Positions 37,520 to 44,900 of a stretch of DNA of 64,000 nucleotides are shown here, piece after piece; positions within the stretch are counted from its first letter, which is position 1, and each line of letters opens with the position of its first letter. Location: the NCBI GenBank assembly GCA_037200975.1, contig JBBCGI010000001.1, positions 1,178,001-1,242,000 of the forward strand. The letters run 5' to 3'. The notes below the pieces were generated by a model. The model was not told the DNA's origin and ran no database searches. It worked only from the letters and a program-made list of their open reading frames with translations. The DNA is from Pseudomonadota bacterium (GTDB lineage: Bacteria; Pseudomonadota; Gammaproteobacteria; Steroidobacterales; Steroidobacteraceae). The position numbers and the translations under genes were made by a program.

Positions 37520-38368
37520 ATGACAACCAAGAGACCAAAGCCCCTATTACTCACGAAGGGTGTTTCGGCTAAGTCGGTTGCCACCGGAATTGTTCTGTCG
37601 ATGGCTCACTCCCTCATTGCCATCTGTGCGCTCGCCACTGTGGGTGGACCTGCGTTGGCAGAACTACCCTCAAGGGAACTTGCGCCTACGCAGCCCGTCG
37701 CCGCGCTGCCACCGACAAGCTCGCCGGCAAAATCGTCGGACCTCTCATCCGCGCCGCCAAAAGCCGCTCCAATTTTGAAACCATCACCTCAGATTTGTGA
37801 TTTGAAGTGTCAACCGAATGATTCGATGTCGACTGCCGAACCCGCCAAGCTACCTGACGTCTCGACATTCCTCTTAGGAAGCGGCGTTGCACTCTTAATT
37901 GCGCTCTTAGCATGGGGAGAGCAAATCCGAGCAATCACACGTGATACGCGCGACCTCGAGCGAGACTTCCTCGAACTGACGGATATTTCTAAGAGTCAAC
38001 TCAACTCTGTGTTGGACGCAGAGACCGATGACGATCGGCTGGTGGCGTTCACTAATCTAATGGCGTCAGGCAACTTGACCAGCGCATCGCAGATTCAATT
38101 GCTCCCACTATTTAATGAGTGGCGAGCGCTTGGCGCAAACCTGCAAAACAAACAGTCGCAGAAGTACTGGTTTACTATCGCGCTGACGCTCGTTCTATTT
38201 TGCAGTGGCACAGTTGCAGCCATATTTTCCATTGGCGTCTATCTACTCGTCTCGGTCACCTTGCCACCTGGCATATTGGTGGTTATCCTGTTGTGGATCG
38301 TTGTGTCCGCCGGTCGACTTGAGCAAAAGCTCAATGTCGTTCTGAAGAAAATCGCCGAGAAAGTATAG
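37520..38368 (+). CDS. Multi-pass membrane protein, candidate effector of QueC-like system
   Basis: First gene of a compact four-gene operon. The 282-residue protein has a first hydrophobic segment (residues about 20-46, ending GGPALA, possibly a cleaved signal), a Pro/Ser/Ala-rich linker (50-95) and a transmembrane helix near 112-128 (FLLGSGVALLIALLAW). A cytoplasmic helical domain follows (AITRDTRDLERDFLELTDIS ... NEWRALGANLQNKQSQ), then a hairpin of two long helices near the C-terminus (TIALTLVLFCSGTVAAIFSI; LVSVTLPPGILVVILLWIVV). I know no family match. Membrane-disrupting or channel effectors are common last-step components in antiphage systems, and this layout would suit one. The next gene starts 7 bp downstream. 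Confidence 0.7.
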   Translation: MTTKRPKPLLLTKGVSAKSVATGIVLSMAHSLIAICALATVGGPALAELPSRELAPTQPVAALPPTSSPAKSSDLSSAPPKAAPILKPSPQICDLKCQPNDSMSTAEPAKLPDVSTFLLGSGVALLIALLAWGEQIRAITRDTRDLERDFLELTDISKSQLNSVLDAETDDDRLVAFTNLMASGNLTSASQIQLLPLFNEWRALGANLQNKQSQKYWFTIALTLVLFCSGTVAAIFSIGVYLLVSVTLPPGILVVILLWIVVSAGRLEQKLNVVLKKIAEKV

Positions 38369-38375
38369 ACACTAC

Positions 38376-38741
38376 ATGGGTGGTCGTCGCGCATCGTCGA
38401 TTTCCGAGATCGTAGGCTCAAATCCTCGTCTCGCTCCGCTCAGCCGGAAACTCGGAAAAGCACTTACGTCCGAAGACCCGGAGAAGGTCGCCCGCGCCGC
38501 GGCGGATCTGGTCGCGACCGGCTCAAAAAGTACGGACATCCTCTATTACGCGACTCAAATGTCGGAGTTCATCCGACGCACTGTCGAGTCTGGAAAAGAT
38601 CTTTCGCACAATGAACGGGAGTCGCTTGCTCGCGAAGAGTGGAGCCGCGTAAAGGCTCGTGAGGGACTTCCTGACGACTCGATCGCGACGCAAGCAATTG
38701 TATCCGCCGCCACGCGTGCCATCGCGCGAAAGAAGAAATGA
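38376..38741 (+). CDS. Small protein with Met-Gly-Gly N-terminus, candidate substrate of the QueC-like enzyme
   Basis: Basic helical protein of 121 residues beginning MGGRRASSISEIVG. Methionine removal would expose an N-terminal glycine. In Qat and type IV CBASS, as I recall recent reports, the QueC-like enzyme attaches a deazaguanine to the N-terminal glycine of a partner protein, so this start is notable beside a QueC-like gene. The rest is helical (PEKVARAAADLVATGSKS, ILYYATQMSEFIRRTVESG) and ends in a lysine-rich tail (AIARKKK). No known domain. Its stop overlaps the start of the next gene as ATGA, so the two small proteins are probably made in equal amounts and may form a complex. Confidence 0.68.
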   Translation: MGGRRASSISEIVGSNPRLAPLSRKLGKALTSEDPEKVARAAADLVATGSKSTDILYYATQMSEFIRRTVESGKDLSHNERESLAREEWSRVKAREGLPDDSIATQAIVSAATRAIARKKK

Positions 38742-39028
38742 AGCGGCCAAAGAAACGTCGCTCGATAAAACCCGAGGTTGAGGAAGCCTCGGTAGTCTTC
38801 ATTCAGGAATTGCTCTTGAGTCAAATGAAGGGGTTGCTGCAAGCGGAGAACCTCGAAGCGCGCTACGTAGTAGTGCGCGATCGCATTGCCAGTTCAACGG
38901 ACGCTCAAATTCGCGTGCTCGCTCGGAGGGCGGCGGAGTATTGGGTGAAGAATGCCCCCACGCCGCTTACCAAAGATGATACGGAAAAGCTCAAGGTTGA
39001 GGCGTTTAACCACGCGTTGAACGGCTGA
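38738..39028 (+). CDS. Small helical protein of QueC-like operon
   Basis: Protein of 96 residues, strongly charged, starting MKRPKKRRSIKPEVEEAS and continuing as helices (VVFIQELLLSQMKGLLQAEN; IASSTDAQIRVLARRAAEYW). It has no signal peptide and no recognised domain. Translational coupling (ATGA overlap) to the MGG protein and a 7-bp gap to the QueC-like gene make a joint role very likely. The basic N-terminus could bind nucleic acid. Confidence 0.65.
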   Translation: MKRPKKRRSIKPEVEEASVVFIQELLLSQMKGLLQAENLEARYVVVRDRIASSTDAQIRVLARRAAEYWVKNAPTPLTKDDTEKLKVEAFNHALNG

Positions 39029-39035
39029 CTTCCGC

Positions 39036-40265
39036 GTGCGCTACCTACACGATATTCAGCACGCCCCGGCGGCCGCCTCCAATAGGGAACAAGCGATCGG
39101 CCTGAACTGCCGATTGATTGCTTCTGCTGCTGTTGAGGTAGAGAAGCGCGGAAGGGACGACGCAATAGATATAGTAGAAATCCCTCTGTATGGTCCGTCG
39201 ACTCTCGATTACGACGAAAAGAAGTTGGCGGCTCTACTTGAAGAGTTGTTCCTATACGTTTTGGTACGCCGCGTTGAAGTTCGGTTTCGATCGCGCCCAA
39301 TTCAAGAGTCACTAATCGTCGATCAAGATCAGCCACAAGCCGATGCTGTATGCCTCTATTCAGGTGGCATTGACTCCTATTCAGGAATTCTTCAGGCCGT
39401 GACAAGTCACCGCTCACTTGTCGGCGTCTTTTGCGCACATAGCGATCAGTCACGAATGATCGAGATCGTTCGCCGCCAAGAGCCTCGCCTTCGAGATCAT
39501 GGCTTACAAACTTTAATCGAGCTCCGGGTGCCCCCCTTAGGCGCGCGCGGCTATATACAACTACGAGGATTTCTTTATGTAGTCAGCGCGGGGACGGTGC
39601 TTTCTCAGTCGCGTGCCTCGACTTTGCTTGTGACGGAGTGTGGACCGACTATGTTTCAACCCCGCTTTTCGCTCCTAGATTCGATCACCATGACAACTCA
39701 TCCTGAGGTGCTTCGTCTGGCGCGCGAGTGTCTCGGCATTTTGCTCATGCGATCCATTTTGTTGGCTACACCACACGCAAACCTAACTAAAGCAGAAGTA
39801 ATGCTGAAATGCCCCGACCCGAATGGGTTGTGGAAGACGCATTCCTGTATCAGCCAGCGCTTCGGGGACCACGACGGTACTTGCTATGGTTGCATTGTGC
39901 GGCGACTAGCATCGACGGCAGCTGGAATAAGGGATACCCGCTATCGTCGAAACCCCATTTGGGACGAGAAAGCGAACGGAGGAAATCTGTTGGAGTTGCT
40001 GCGCTTCTCGACAAATGTCCTTGCCAATCCAAAGCGCTTGCAGGACTTTCAACAACGTAGCATTGCCCAATTCAAAGTTAGGGATCTTTTTCAGCGATTT
40101 GCATTGGACAATTTAGCGGCGATTCACAGTATTCGCGCTCGTGGCGGAAAGCTTCGCGGCTCAATCAAACAAATGCTGGAGGAAGTGGATCGCAAGCATG
40201 GCGAAAGTATATTGGAGTCGCGGCTCACTGAACTTCGCAAACTACGTGGCGCAGAGGCTAGTTAA
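39036..40265 (+). CDS. QueC-like PP-loop protein (QatC/Cap9-like), defence-associated
   Basis: Protein of 409 residues, start GTG at 39036. The PP-loop ATP-pyrophosphatase motif SGGIDS lies at residues 109-114 (VCLYSGGIDSYSGIL). A zinc-type cysteine cluster follows (THSC at C271, TCYGC at C283 and C286, then IVRR), as in 7-cyano-7-deazaguanine synthase QueC. The body TECGPTMFQPRFSLLDSITM and TTHPEV resembles QatC more than metabolic QueC, and the 100-residue N-terminal extension and C-terminal helices are absent from QueC. No queuosine pathway gene is nearby. As a defence enzyme it would conjugate a deazaguanine to a partner, probably the MGG protein. The convergent AIPR gene ends 15 bp away. 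Confidence 0.82.
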   Translation: MRYLHDIQHAPAAASNREQAIGLNCRLIASAAVEVEKRGRDDAIDIVEIPLYGPSTLDYDEKKLAALLEELFLYVLVRRVEVRFRSRPIQESLIVDQDQPQADAVCLYSGGIDSYSGILQAVTSHRSLVGVFCAHSDQSRMIEIVRRQEPRLRDHGLQTLIELRVPPLGARGYIQLRGFLYVVSAGTVLSQSRASTLLVTECGPTMFQPRFSLLDSITMTTHPEVLRLARECLGILLMRSILLATPHANLTKAEVMLKCPDPNGLWKTHSCISQRFGDHDGTCYGCIVRRLASTAAGIRDTRYRRNPIWDEKANGGNLLELLRFSTNVLANPKRLQDFQQRSIAQFKVRDLFQRFALDNLAAIHSIRARGGKLRGSIKQMLEEVDRKHGESILESRLTELRKLRGAEAS

Positions 40266-40280
40266 TAAAGACGGAGTAAA

Positions 40281-42002
40281 TCAAGCAATTCCCTTACGTC
40301 TAATTTCGGCTTCGAAAGCAGTCCGAAGTTCATTCGAGAAGTCCCTACTCCTAACAGCCTCCTTCAACTGAAGCTTGCTCTTACGAAGAGAATGCTCTAC
40401 CAAATCGCCACAGGCTTTGAAGACCATGAAGCAATCTCCGTTGATGTCATACAGTTGGAGGGTTTCGTCGAAGGAGTGCCCCTTCTTCTTCTGTCTCACC
40501 ACTTCGTTGTACGAATGGGCCATGTACAAAATCTGAAAGCGAAATCTCTGGAGATTCTTCGGCAGCTTTCCTGACTTGAATGCGCGATCAAGGCGATTCA
40601 GCATGAGGCTGGCAAGAAAGTACGGCTCTTTGTTGTCATCGGCACGAAAGAGCTTGCTTCTATTAGCCTCCAATAGCTCTCCGTAGTACCGATGGGTGCT
40701 ATGGGGCTGCGCCAATGTTGTAGCAACGTACGCATTGGTTTGCGCCGCCAATGTCACTACCTGAGATGGCTTAATGTTCGGCGAGCCATCGTACTGGCGC
40801 GATCGGCGCTCATAAAAAATGGGGTTACCGATCTTCCTAGAGTGCGCGTTGTAGAATTCTTCTAGATCTTTGTGGAAAGGGGCAAGGGACTCGAATGCCT
40901 CGTCCGTAACGTGCGTTTGCTTGTTGGTCGCTCGAATCACTCTTCCCGAAAGATCTTGATCGGTGGTTTCTATGAACTTCACGATGACGTGAGTTCCAGC
41001 TTTAAGTTTAGCTCGCTGTTCGAAAAGAACGTGAGATGACTGGCAACCATTCACGATCTGGAAATCTGTCAATTTTAGCTTCGCGCCAACCGGATCAATC
41101 TTCTTAGCGATGATCGTTATGCCATTGTTTAGAATTGCCAGCGCCGCCTGAGTCGCCGTGTCAGTTAGGGTTGCTTTGATGTCCGCATTGACCTTCGTTG
41201 TTCCCTGGAAGTCGCGAACATTGTCTTCAAAGAGGCTTTTCTGAAGATTTCCGTCGGAGTCAGAGATTAGTCGCACGTACTCAGTCGCAGAGAGGCTTCC
41301 TACGAAAGATTGCCGCACGCCGGGAATCACCGGCAAGGCAACGTGGTTAGGGAAATCGACTTCTTTGATAGTTTTCCGACGGAGTTCTCGATATGTTTCC
41401 TTAAGACGATTTGCGTCATAGAACGTAAACGTCACTGCTCGAAACATTCGCCTCGCCTTAATGTCGGCGAGTTCGCGCTCCACTCTTCCAGTAATTTGTT
41501 CCGGCTCCTTCCATTCGCCAGTAGTCACAAAATAGATTCTTAGCTCCGGAGGATCGTCGAAGTTAATCGAATGCTTGTAGATCTTGTCTTTGAGGGACCT
41601 TAGATTCTTGATGTCTTCGTTCTCCGGAATTGCGGGCGCACTATCAAAGAATGACTTTATTCCGAAGATCAATGTTCCGACTTGATCGCCCTTAAACTTT
41701 GGTGATGATTTGGACTGAATGAACGCAAAGGACGCGTCAATGTATCCGTTCTTTTGAAGCAGGTACTCGATCTCCTCTTCACTCTGAACGATATTTCCGT
41801 TCACGGTGATTGCCACGCCATCGGATCCAATGTCATCGCCGCCTCCAACTGAGAGGCTCTCGATGTCGAATTCTCGAGGATACTGTTTCGAAACGACGCA
41901 GTAGTTAACGAATCGCTCGAACTGATCGGACTCTGAGAGTTCTTTGAATCCCTCCGCATCGGAGAAATCATTTACATAGCTTTCGAGGATCTGGTCCTTC
42001 AT
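40281..42002 (-). CDS. AIPR-family abortive phage infection protein
   Basis: Protein of 573 residues. The AIPR pattern is recognisable: an N-terminal restriction-nuclease-like segment (DDIGSDGVAITVNGNIVQ ... DASFAFIQSKSS) and the conserved core FEDNVRDFQGTTKVN, LNNGITIIAKK, FQIVNGCQSSHVLFEQ and KFIETTDQDLSGRVIRATNKQ. AIPR proteins abort infection when triggered; the enzymology is little known. The N-terminal Asp and Gln-x-Lys (IQSKSS) suggest a PD-(D/E)xK nuclease. The ATG at 42002 is preferred, with TGGGGTG close upstream. A TTG at 42062 in the same frame would add 20 residues. It faces the QueC-like operon tail to tail. Confidence 0.85.
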   Translation of the reverse strand: MKDQILESYVNDFSDAEGFKELSESDQFERFVNYCVVSKQYPREFDIESLSVGGGDDIGSDGVAITVNGNIVQSEEEIEYLLQKNGYIDASFAFIQSKSSPKFKGDQVGTLIFGIKSFFDSAPAIPENEDIKNLRSLKDKIYKHSINFDDPPELRIYFVTTGEWKEPEQITGRVERELADIKARRMFRAVTFTFYDANRLKETYRELRRKTIKEVDFPNHVALPVIPGVRQSFVGSLSATEYVRLISDSDGNLQKSLFEDNVRDFQGTTKVNADIKATLTDTATQAALAILNNGITIIAKKIDPVGAKLKLTDFQIVNGCQSSHVLFEQRAKLKAGTHVIVKFIETTDQDLSGRVIRATNKQTHVTDEAFESLAPFHKDLEEFYNAHSRKIGNPIFYERRSRQYDGSPNIKPSQVVTLAAQTNAYVATTLAQPHSTHRYYGELLEANRSKLFRADDNKEPYFLASLMLNRLDRAFKSGKLPKNLQRFRFQILYMAHSYNEVVRQKKKGHSFDETLQLYDINGDCFMVFKACGDLVEHSLRKSKLQLKEAVRSRDFSNELRTAFEAEIRRKGIA

Positions 42003-42614
42003 AACACCCCAGTGTTGTGGATCTCCACAGAGAATCTCGTGAACAGTTAGCCTCGCAAGCAATCAGGGACACGAGAGTAGCTTGATTGGCTTCTCAATCT
42101 TCTCTGGCACTATTACGTGATCTGAAATCTATTATAGATAGAGAGACTAGCTAACTATAAGAATGGCACTGATCTGCTAAGCAGTACAGCCCGAGTTGCT
42201 AGTCAGAATGTGCGAAGCGTCATGGAACAAGGAACCAATGCCAGTTCAGATTCGGCTGCTTGGCACGCGCCGCGCATTCAATCCAAGGCACGGGTAAATG
42301 AACTCGAGGTGGCGTCGATTTCTGCCGACTGCCAGTCTCCGCTCGGATTGCCGCGGCGTTGCCGGCGTGGTGGAAGCAGGGTCGAAAACTTTTGAATTGT
42401 GGTGAGAAGCCGCGAGCTTGCGGCCCTTTCAAGACTGCCTCCACGGCGCCTGCGCTCGACAAGTCCGCGGATTTGCTGGTCTTTTTGCGCGCGGCGCTGT
42501 CTCCGAACTCTCCCAAGCAAATCGCCCCGTTTTTCTCTACCATTCGCCGCTCTAAAAACGCCCCGGGCCGGGTCTTTTCCCGCCCCAATTCATTGAATTT
42601 CAACGGAACTTGCC
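42003..42614. other. Long leader between AIPR gene and fusA
   Basis: 612 bp with no recognisable gene. The left part (to about 42200) is AT-rich like the defence island, the right part is GC-rich, so the island boundary probably falls near 42.2 kb. A small hairpin GCCGC-GAGCTT-GCGGC is at 42409-42424, and poly-T runs occur near 42480 and 42530. Open frames of 60-130 codons exist on both strands but have no signal or family match. The AIPR promoter and the fusA promoter must be here. No tRNA end or integrase is visible. Confidence 0.45.
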
Positions 42615-44777: not shown

Positions 44778-44786
44778 TTGGGAGAT

Positions 44787-44840
44787 GGTGCCGGGTGGGG
44801 AAAGTGGGGAGAGGACTCCCCACTTTCCCCACCCGGCACC
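44787..44840. repeat. 54-bp hairpin element, copy 1 (after fusA)
   Basis: Two 25-bp perfectly complementary arms around the 4-base loop AGGA. The left arm starts GGTGCCGGGTGGGGAAAGTG and the right arm ends CACCCGGCACC. It lies 9 bp after the fusA stop, where it could act as a transcription terminator without a T tract, or protect the mRNA 3' end. Confidence 0.85.
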
Positions 44841-44900
44841 CGACCAGAATCGAGGGCGGGTGAGCGATCACTCGCCCTTTTTCTTGAGGTGAGTAGATCG

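Follow-up and report, generated by a model that had tools for sequence, protein, structure and literature searches.

The closest described systems pair a QueC-family enzyme with a protein partner that begins Met-Gly. In type IV CBASS, the enzyme Cap9 attaches 7-carboxy-7-deazaguanine to the N-terminal glycine of CD-NTases that start with MGGS, as described in a preprint and in PMC13279940. For the qatABCD system, PMC13279940 reports that: the QatB substitution G2D abolishes defence in P. aeruginosa qatABCD; mutants in the SGGxDS motif or in the Thr pair of QatC lose defence; and exchange of this Thr pair, which replaces the base-holding Tyr/Asp of Cap9 and QueC, for Tyr/Asp likewise abolishes it. 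In its account of QatC, PMC13279940 calls the reaction unresolved, and work on QueC-family enzymes (PMC13329287) gives deazaguanylation as the proposed one; as far as these accounts go, the two sources differ in how firmly they name the reaction.

Here, a four-gene operon within a window of 64,000 nucleotides (the whole stretch of DNA analysed) is compared with these systems. The best reading of the data is N-terminal glycine modification of its 121-aa protein, which we consider probable.

Gene layout and the glycine-start protein

The operon lies on the forward strand and encodes, in order: a 282-aa membrane protein (37520..38368), a 121-aa protein beginning MGGRR (38376..38741), a 96-aa protein (38738..39028), and a 409-aa QueC-like protein (39036..40265). 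The membrane-protein stop ends at 38368, leaving 7 nt to the ATG at 38376; the 121-aa and 96-aa genes share an ATGA overlap of 4 nt (38738-38741); and a 7-nt gap separates the 96-aa gene from the GTG start of the QueC-like gene at 39036. The preliminary description of this DNA had placed a 121-residue protein starting MGGRR, with glycine directly after methionine, in one coupled operon with a QueC-like gene. Reading of the open frames confirms the protein and its start, and the tight spacing and overlap confirm the coupling.

The N-terminus of the 121-aa ORF (38376-38741, forward strand) reads MGGRRASSISEIVG, with the Gly2 codon at 38379..38381. Between the upstream stop at 38343 and Met62, the ATG at 38376 is the sole ATG, GTG or TTG in this frame, making Gly2 independent of start choice; the same interval holds a single CTG, at codon 45. 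An initiator methionine is cleaved before a small second residue, and by this rule Gly2 would be exposed as the putative N-terminal acceptor. No other product of the operon carries a glycine at position 2.

The AlphaFold model of the 121-aa protein, made from the single sequence, is all-helical (best of five pLDDT 80.2, pTM 0.74; the remaining four at 60-69), and this predicted fold supports the view that the gene is truly coding. By GC content at the three codon positions, the gene stands out only weakly from shadow ORFs. In the model, residues 1-10 have a mean pLDDT of 57 and the first helix spans residues 9-15; the low values would fit a free N-terminal tail. No homologues of the protein were found in plasmids (E 0.1), viral contigs or the QatC-like loci collected by then (tblastn, E 0.5), and only its own copy was found among 340 genomes of the class. 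A fold search of the model against the PDB gave nothing at E 0.001. The top VIA-align score, Z 6.5 for the archaeal virus protein 3fbz, falls in the unspecific range of that tool, and QatB is not among the matches listed.

The 96-aa protein has a basic start (MKRPKKRRS...) with Lys2 in place of glycine, and matches no Pfam, PADLOC or NCBIfam family and no plasmid. Its gene adjoins the enzyme gene and puts the 121-aa gene one gene further off than the partner gene in the other loci counted. A mutual similarity of the two small proteins, suspected by eye, was rejected (blastp E 10, hhalign probability 0.4%).

The 96-aa protein could represent the latter part of a partner that has been divided in two. 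One alternative would make the two small proteins the halves of a shrunken QatB, in a reduced qatBC that has shed qatA and qatD. Gly2 would then sit on the first half, the order of Gly-start gene or genes followed by a QatC-like gene would be kept, and both small proteins are unannotated. Residues 18-51 of the 121-aa protein also match canonical QatB weakly, just past its variable tail, at E 0.016; this is the best of eight hhalign comparisons, insignificant once their number is considered, and the likeness was rejected. For the 96-aa protein, hhalign detected no likeness to QatB. The QatB models of NCBIfam and PADLOC match neither small protein. This alternative is held to be quite improbable.

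The first gene of the operon (37520..38368) encodes a protein with about four hydrophobic segments by hydropathy, near residues 20-42, 111-133, 216-237 and 240-265, and is rich in Pro and Ser between the first and the second. It is a candidate membrane effector or sensor. No family scored above cut-off in the libraries scanned (Pfam, PADLOC, NCBIfam), and plasmids gave no match. Among 366 genomes of the order, its own copy was accompanied by three matches at E 9e-4, which were set aside as chance: two fall in one 417-aa ORF and one crosses a stop codon. The 417-aa ORF has no QueC-like neighbour in the 3.3 kb covered.

Convergent with the operon lies a gene for a 593-aa AIPR/AbiU-like protein (40281..42062, reverse strand; Pfam AIPR 1e-38, PADLOC AbiU 9.8e-135), likely a second defence gene of the same low-GC island. 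GC content is 0.48-0.57 across 35-43 kb and 0.60-0.68 in the remainder of 30-50 kb. With 34.0-45.5 kb as the query, no DNA match to 34.0-42.5 kb was listed in four related genomes. In one congener (G001) the match begins at about 42.5 kb, beside fusA and inside a contig; in another (G003) it begins at a contig edge; and a third related genome (G002, 67% complete) has no match to the query. The low GC and the lack of a match to 34.0-42.5 kb in these genomes give the block the look of an accessory island. Just past fusA, at about 44784-44841 of the window, lies a palindromic REP-like element. A 91-base query around it has 101 matches in its own genome, often on both strands of one place, and also matches many places in G003.

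The QatC-type enzyme

The QueC-like gene named in the preliminary description is borne out, and its product (39036..40265) is of the QatC kind by both sequence and fold. Its best matches are PADLOC QatC (4.4e-12), the PDB sequence of QatC 9vlk (4.7e-10), and NCBIfam QatC NF041925 with 57.4 bits (E 1.2e-15), under the curated cut-off of 280 bits. Against Pfam QueC it scores 17.2 bits, under the cut-off of 22. The best fold match of its AlphaFold model (34 alignment rows; pLDDT 80.7, pTM 0.86) is 9y01_B, the QatC of a QatB-QatC complex (E 1.5e-12), with TM 0.66/0.64 over 398 columns and rmsd 4.5. This superposition covers nearly the whole chain, extensions included; those on QueC 3bl5 and Cap9 9nto cover about 200 columns each, the core. 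By target length, TM is 0.78 for Cap9 9nto, 0.72 for QueC 3bl5 and 0.64 for QatC 9y01_B. The superposition of the core on Cap9 or QueC is thus no worse than that of the entire chain on QatC, and core fold alone does not separate the three.

Three sites were read from the sequence. The first is the SGGIDS motif, a predicted pyrophosphate-binding loop (residues 109-114; 39360..39377, forward strand). The second is TMTTHP (residues 218-223; 39687..39704, forward strand), in which the Thr pair 218/220 is QatC-like and differs from the Tyr/Asp of Cap9 and QueC, with roles assigned from the account in PMC13279940. The third is the zinc-site region, C271...H279 D280 G T C283 Y G C286 I V R R (39846..39905, forward strand), which has three Cys and places Asp280 at the position of the fourth. 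T218 and T220 are common to the enzyme and all 33 of the 33 other alignment rows. In addition to SGGIDS, T218, T220 and TTHP, the enzyme retains P246, T251-K252, C271, C283 and C286. It deviates at many positions otherwise invariant in the 33 QatC-type rows, among them 175, 202 and 208, the W of WxR, and one zinc Cys.

A tree of the core places the enzyme inside a clade whose partners begin MGH (described below), on a branch of length 7.4 that leaves its position unsure; the host QueC, used as outgroup, is likewise misplaced by a long branch. Sequence and model together mark the enzyme as a highly divergent member of the QatC type, and with its altered invariant residues and very long branch it may catalyse a different reaction or none.

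Homologues of the same subtype were found neither in overlapping sampled sets of 59, 369, 396 and 398 genomes nor in plasmids, phages, genome contigs or the viral-contig matches listed. These scans used conserved-motif patterns on sampled genomes, and one viral set comprised 80 of 114 relatives. Among the matches listed, the relatives of the enzyme are other QatC-like types only, at no more than about 33% identity over the core; the highest identity among them, 39%, covers one short segment in L098. Six further viral loci showed no extended similarity.

Glycine-start partners and a proposed tagging reaction

Besides the window, 154 distinct QatC-like loci were collected, defined by SGGxDS and TxTTHP without an intervening stop and with identical 125-aa keys merged. 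Their zinc-site motifs assign 43 to the canonical group and 110 to a second clade, with one left unclassed. Retrieval started from SGGxDS and TxTTHP, with which the viral collection was scanned twice, and many loci are related. In 10 of the 154 the partner is cut by a DNA end (L020, L024, L027, L035, L038, L057, L093, L143, L162 and L209), and these were left out. At 143 of the 144 assessable loci, a start codon and a glycine peptide (MGTS or MGH) stand upstream of the QatC-like gene, a figure that counts loci rather than independent events; nor should the proportion on viral contigs be read as a frequency in nature. The sole exception is L009.

The glycine peptide is in frame with the partner at 139 of the 144 loci; the automatic count in the chosen partner frame was 138, to which L054 was added as intact in another frame (260 aa). 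Four more have a stop or an apparent frameshift. At L056:2643-3428 the glycine peptide reaches a stop after 14 residues; at L193:3764-4551, L200 and L210 it lies in a different frame from the remainder of the partner. Either sequencing error or decay may account for these four broken genes.

At canonical QatC loci the partner begins MGTS and is 251-299 aa long. In the second clade, hereafter the MGH clade, an MGHxRLGxLP partner of 255-269 aa accompanies a QatC-like protein of mostly about 600-720 aa (for example L021:4781-7428, L014:4109-7013 and many of L016-L156), and 82 of its 110 loci are on viral contigs. With NCBIfam QatC, the enzymes of the two MGH pairs scanned reached 225 and 215 bits and so stayed under the cut-off of 280; their partners had no above-chance match to a family of NCBIfam or PADLOC. 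The 100% conservation of G2 and H3 in the MGH partner alignment is a consequence of row selection. One hhalign comparison of the MGTS and MGH partner families gave a probability of 5% and E 0.007; by sequence, then, the two families are not detectably related.

The background rate of Gly2 is about 5% per gene in two sets of mechanical ORF calls: 20 of 413 ATG ORFs of at least 250 aa in the loci collected by then, partners excluded; and 4 of 77 ATG ORFs of at least 200 aa whose GC peaks at the third codon position, taken from 400 kb of the host's own genome. Among four unrelated genes, the chance of at least one with Gly2 is about 18%. A lone Gly2 gene among four is thus not rare, and its weight here rests on the QatC-type neighbour.

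This background rate lends some weight to the possibility that Gly2 is coincidental: the 121-aa protein would be a helical partner of the usual sort, and the target of the enzyme would be something else, or nothing. Other targets can be named: the 96-aa protein, whose Lys2-bearing gene adjoins that of the enzyme; tRNA; or a small molecule. The loss of many QatC-invariant residues from the enzyme would also suit this possibility. Against it stand the Gly-start neighbour at 143 of 144 assessable QatC-type loci, and the retention of the core ATP site, the Thr pair and three zinc Cys. Coincidence is regarded as rather unlikely. The acceptor role of the 121-aa protein is considered probable on the partner rule set against the per-gene chance rate. 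Taken in aggregate, the near-universal Gly-start partner, the two partner families that lack detectable similarity, and the present operon, itself an orphan, argue for a shared N-terminal glycine modification.

The preliminary description had proposed that the two proteins form a pair of enzyme and substrate. This gains from the QatC kind of the enzyme and from the Gly-start partners elsewhere; the intervening 96-aa gene, a departure from the other loci, counts against it.

The starting points for a mechanism are features that the computation shows directly: how the genes are arranged, Gly2, the fold and Thr-pair site of QatC type, and the near-universal Gly-start partner elsewhere. If the operon is taken as a diverged module of the Qat type, the sequence of events likely involves: removal of Met from the 121-aa protein, placing Gly2 at the tip of a short flexible tail; binding of ATP by the SGGIDS loop of the QatC-type enzyme and activation of a small carboxylic acid; and coupling of the activated acid onto Gly2. 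The tagged 121-aa protein, together with the 96-aa and membrane proteins, would then stop phage growth. The location in a low-GC block beside the AIPR/AbiU-like gene also speaks for this reading. The acceptor, the bond, the group added, what the two accompanying proteins do and the defence function itself are all proposals.

As to the added group, the preliminary description had named deazaguanine. Following the QatC-Cap9 correspondence given in PMC13279940, Thr218 and Thr220 replace the base-holding Tyr/Asp, and the active site as read from the sequence does not support this group. Deazaguanylation proper would have the enzyme act like Cap9, transferring 7-carboxy-7-deazaguanine onto Gly2. 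The action of Cap9 on MGGS-starting CD-NTases (PMC13279940; preprint) is a precedent, and the MGG of the 121-aa protein resembles MGGS. The acid may be available, as queC and queE are adjacent genes in the host (G000:C1 201960-203277; L242:4961-6278). However, the host genome, rated 97% complete, has no QueD-family match (TIGR03367 or PF01242) at E 0.001, making this supply uncertain; the host 7-deazaguanine pathway may be incomplete or served by another enzyme. Together with the Thr pair, and with the report that QatC carrying Tyr/Asp in its place gives no defence (PMC13279940), this makes a Cap9-like reaction unlikely.

Beyond glycine modification itself, the operon could be a third QueC-family protein-tagging defence system, in which a stripped-down QatC-type ligase tags the N-terminal glycine of the 121-aa protein, which in its tagged form opens or arms the membrane effector encoded in the same operon. 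This extension is speculative, and is put forward as doubtful. If it is true, glycine tagging by QueC-like enzymes would be a general switch wired to differing effectors: a cyclic-nucleotide synthase in CBASS and a membrane protein here. The 121-aa protein would also be a far smaller substrate for intact-mass work than QatB, which is 29.7 kDa in the published construct (PMC13279940).

Comparison with known systems

No published description of the operon or of the MGH clade was found in the open-licence PMC literature. The five proteins scanned for the comparisons below are the four operon products and the convergent AIPR/AbiU-like neighbour.

Canonical QueC shares with the enzyme the SGGxDS ATP-binding fold and the zinc-site region. 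The enzyme nevertheless falls under the Pfam cut-off, and the host's own queC is elsewhere, beside queE.

Type IV CBASS shares the combination of a QueC-family ligase and a protein partner with an N-terminal MGG(S). In contrast to that system, no CD-NTase and no Cap10 are present among the five proteins scanned. Cap9 also keeps Tyr/Asp and lacks the extensions, whereas the enzyme here has T218/T220.

The MGH clade likewise has a Gly-start partner and contains the nearest sequence relatives of the enzyme; within the tree set the best of them reaches 32% across 193 columns. Its partner, however, shows no detectable similarity to the 121-aa protein; its enzyme is usually longer and has SQCIDRR at the zinc site; and no membrane or 96-aa gene was seen. 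Cluster 2 of PMC13329287 may contain this clade, since only about one third of the cluster's members, by the figures given there, are beside qatA or qatD.

The likeness to qatABCD lies in the enzyme, which shares the QatC-type fold, an extension at either terminus, SGGxDS, the Thr pair and TTHP, and in a Gly-start partner encoded upstream within the operon. The differences are: five scanned proteins of which none matches a KAP ATPase (QatA) or a TatD nuclease (QatD); a partner that has 121 aa, a short tail and the start MGGRR, where QatB has 251-299 aa and MGTS; QatB models (NF041924, PADLOC) that match neither the 121-aa nor the 96-aa protein; the additional 96-aa and membrane proteins; and an enzyme at 57 bits against a cut-off of 280. 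With QatB, QatA and QatD not found and the enzyme below the QatC cut-off, the operon is not a member of qatABCD; it is Qat-like in type.
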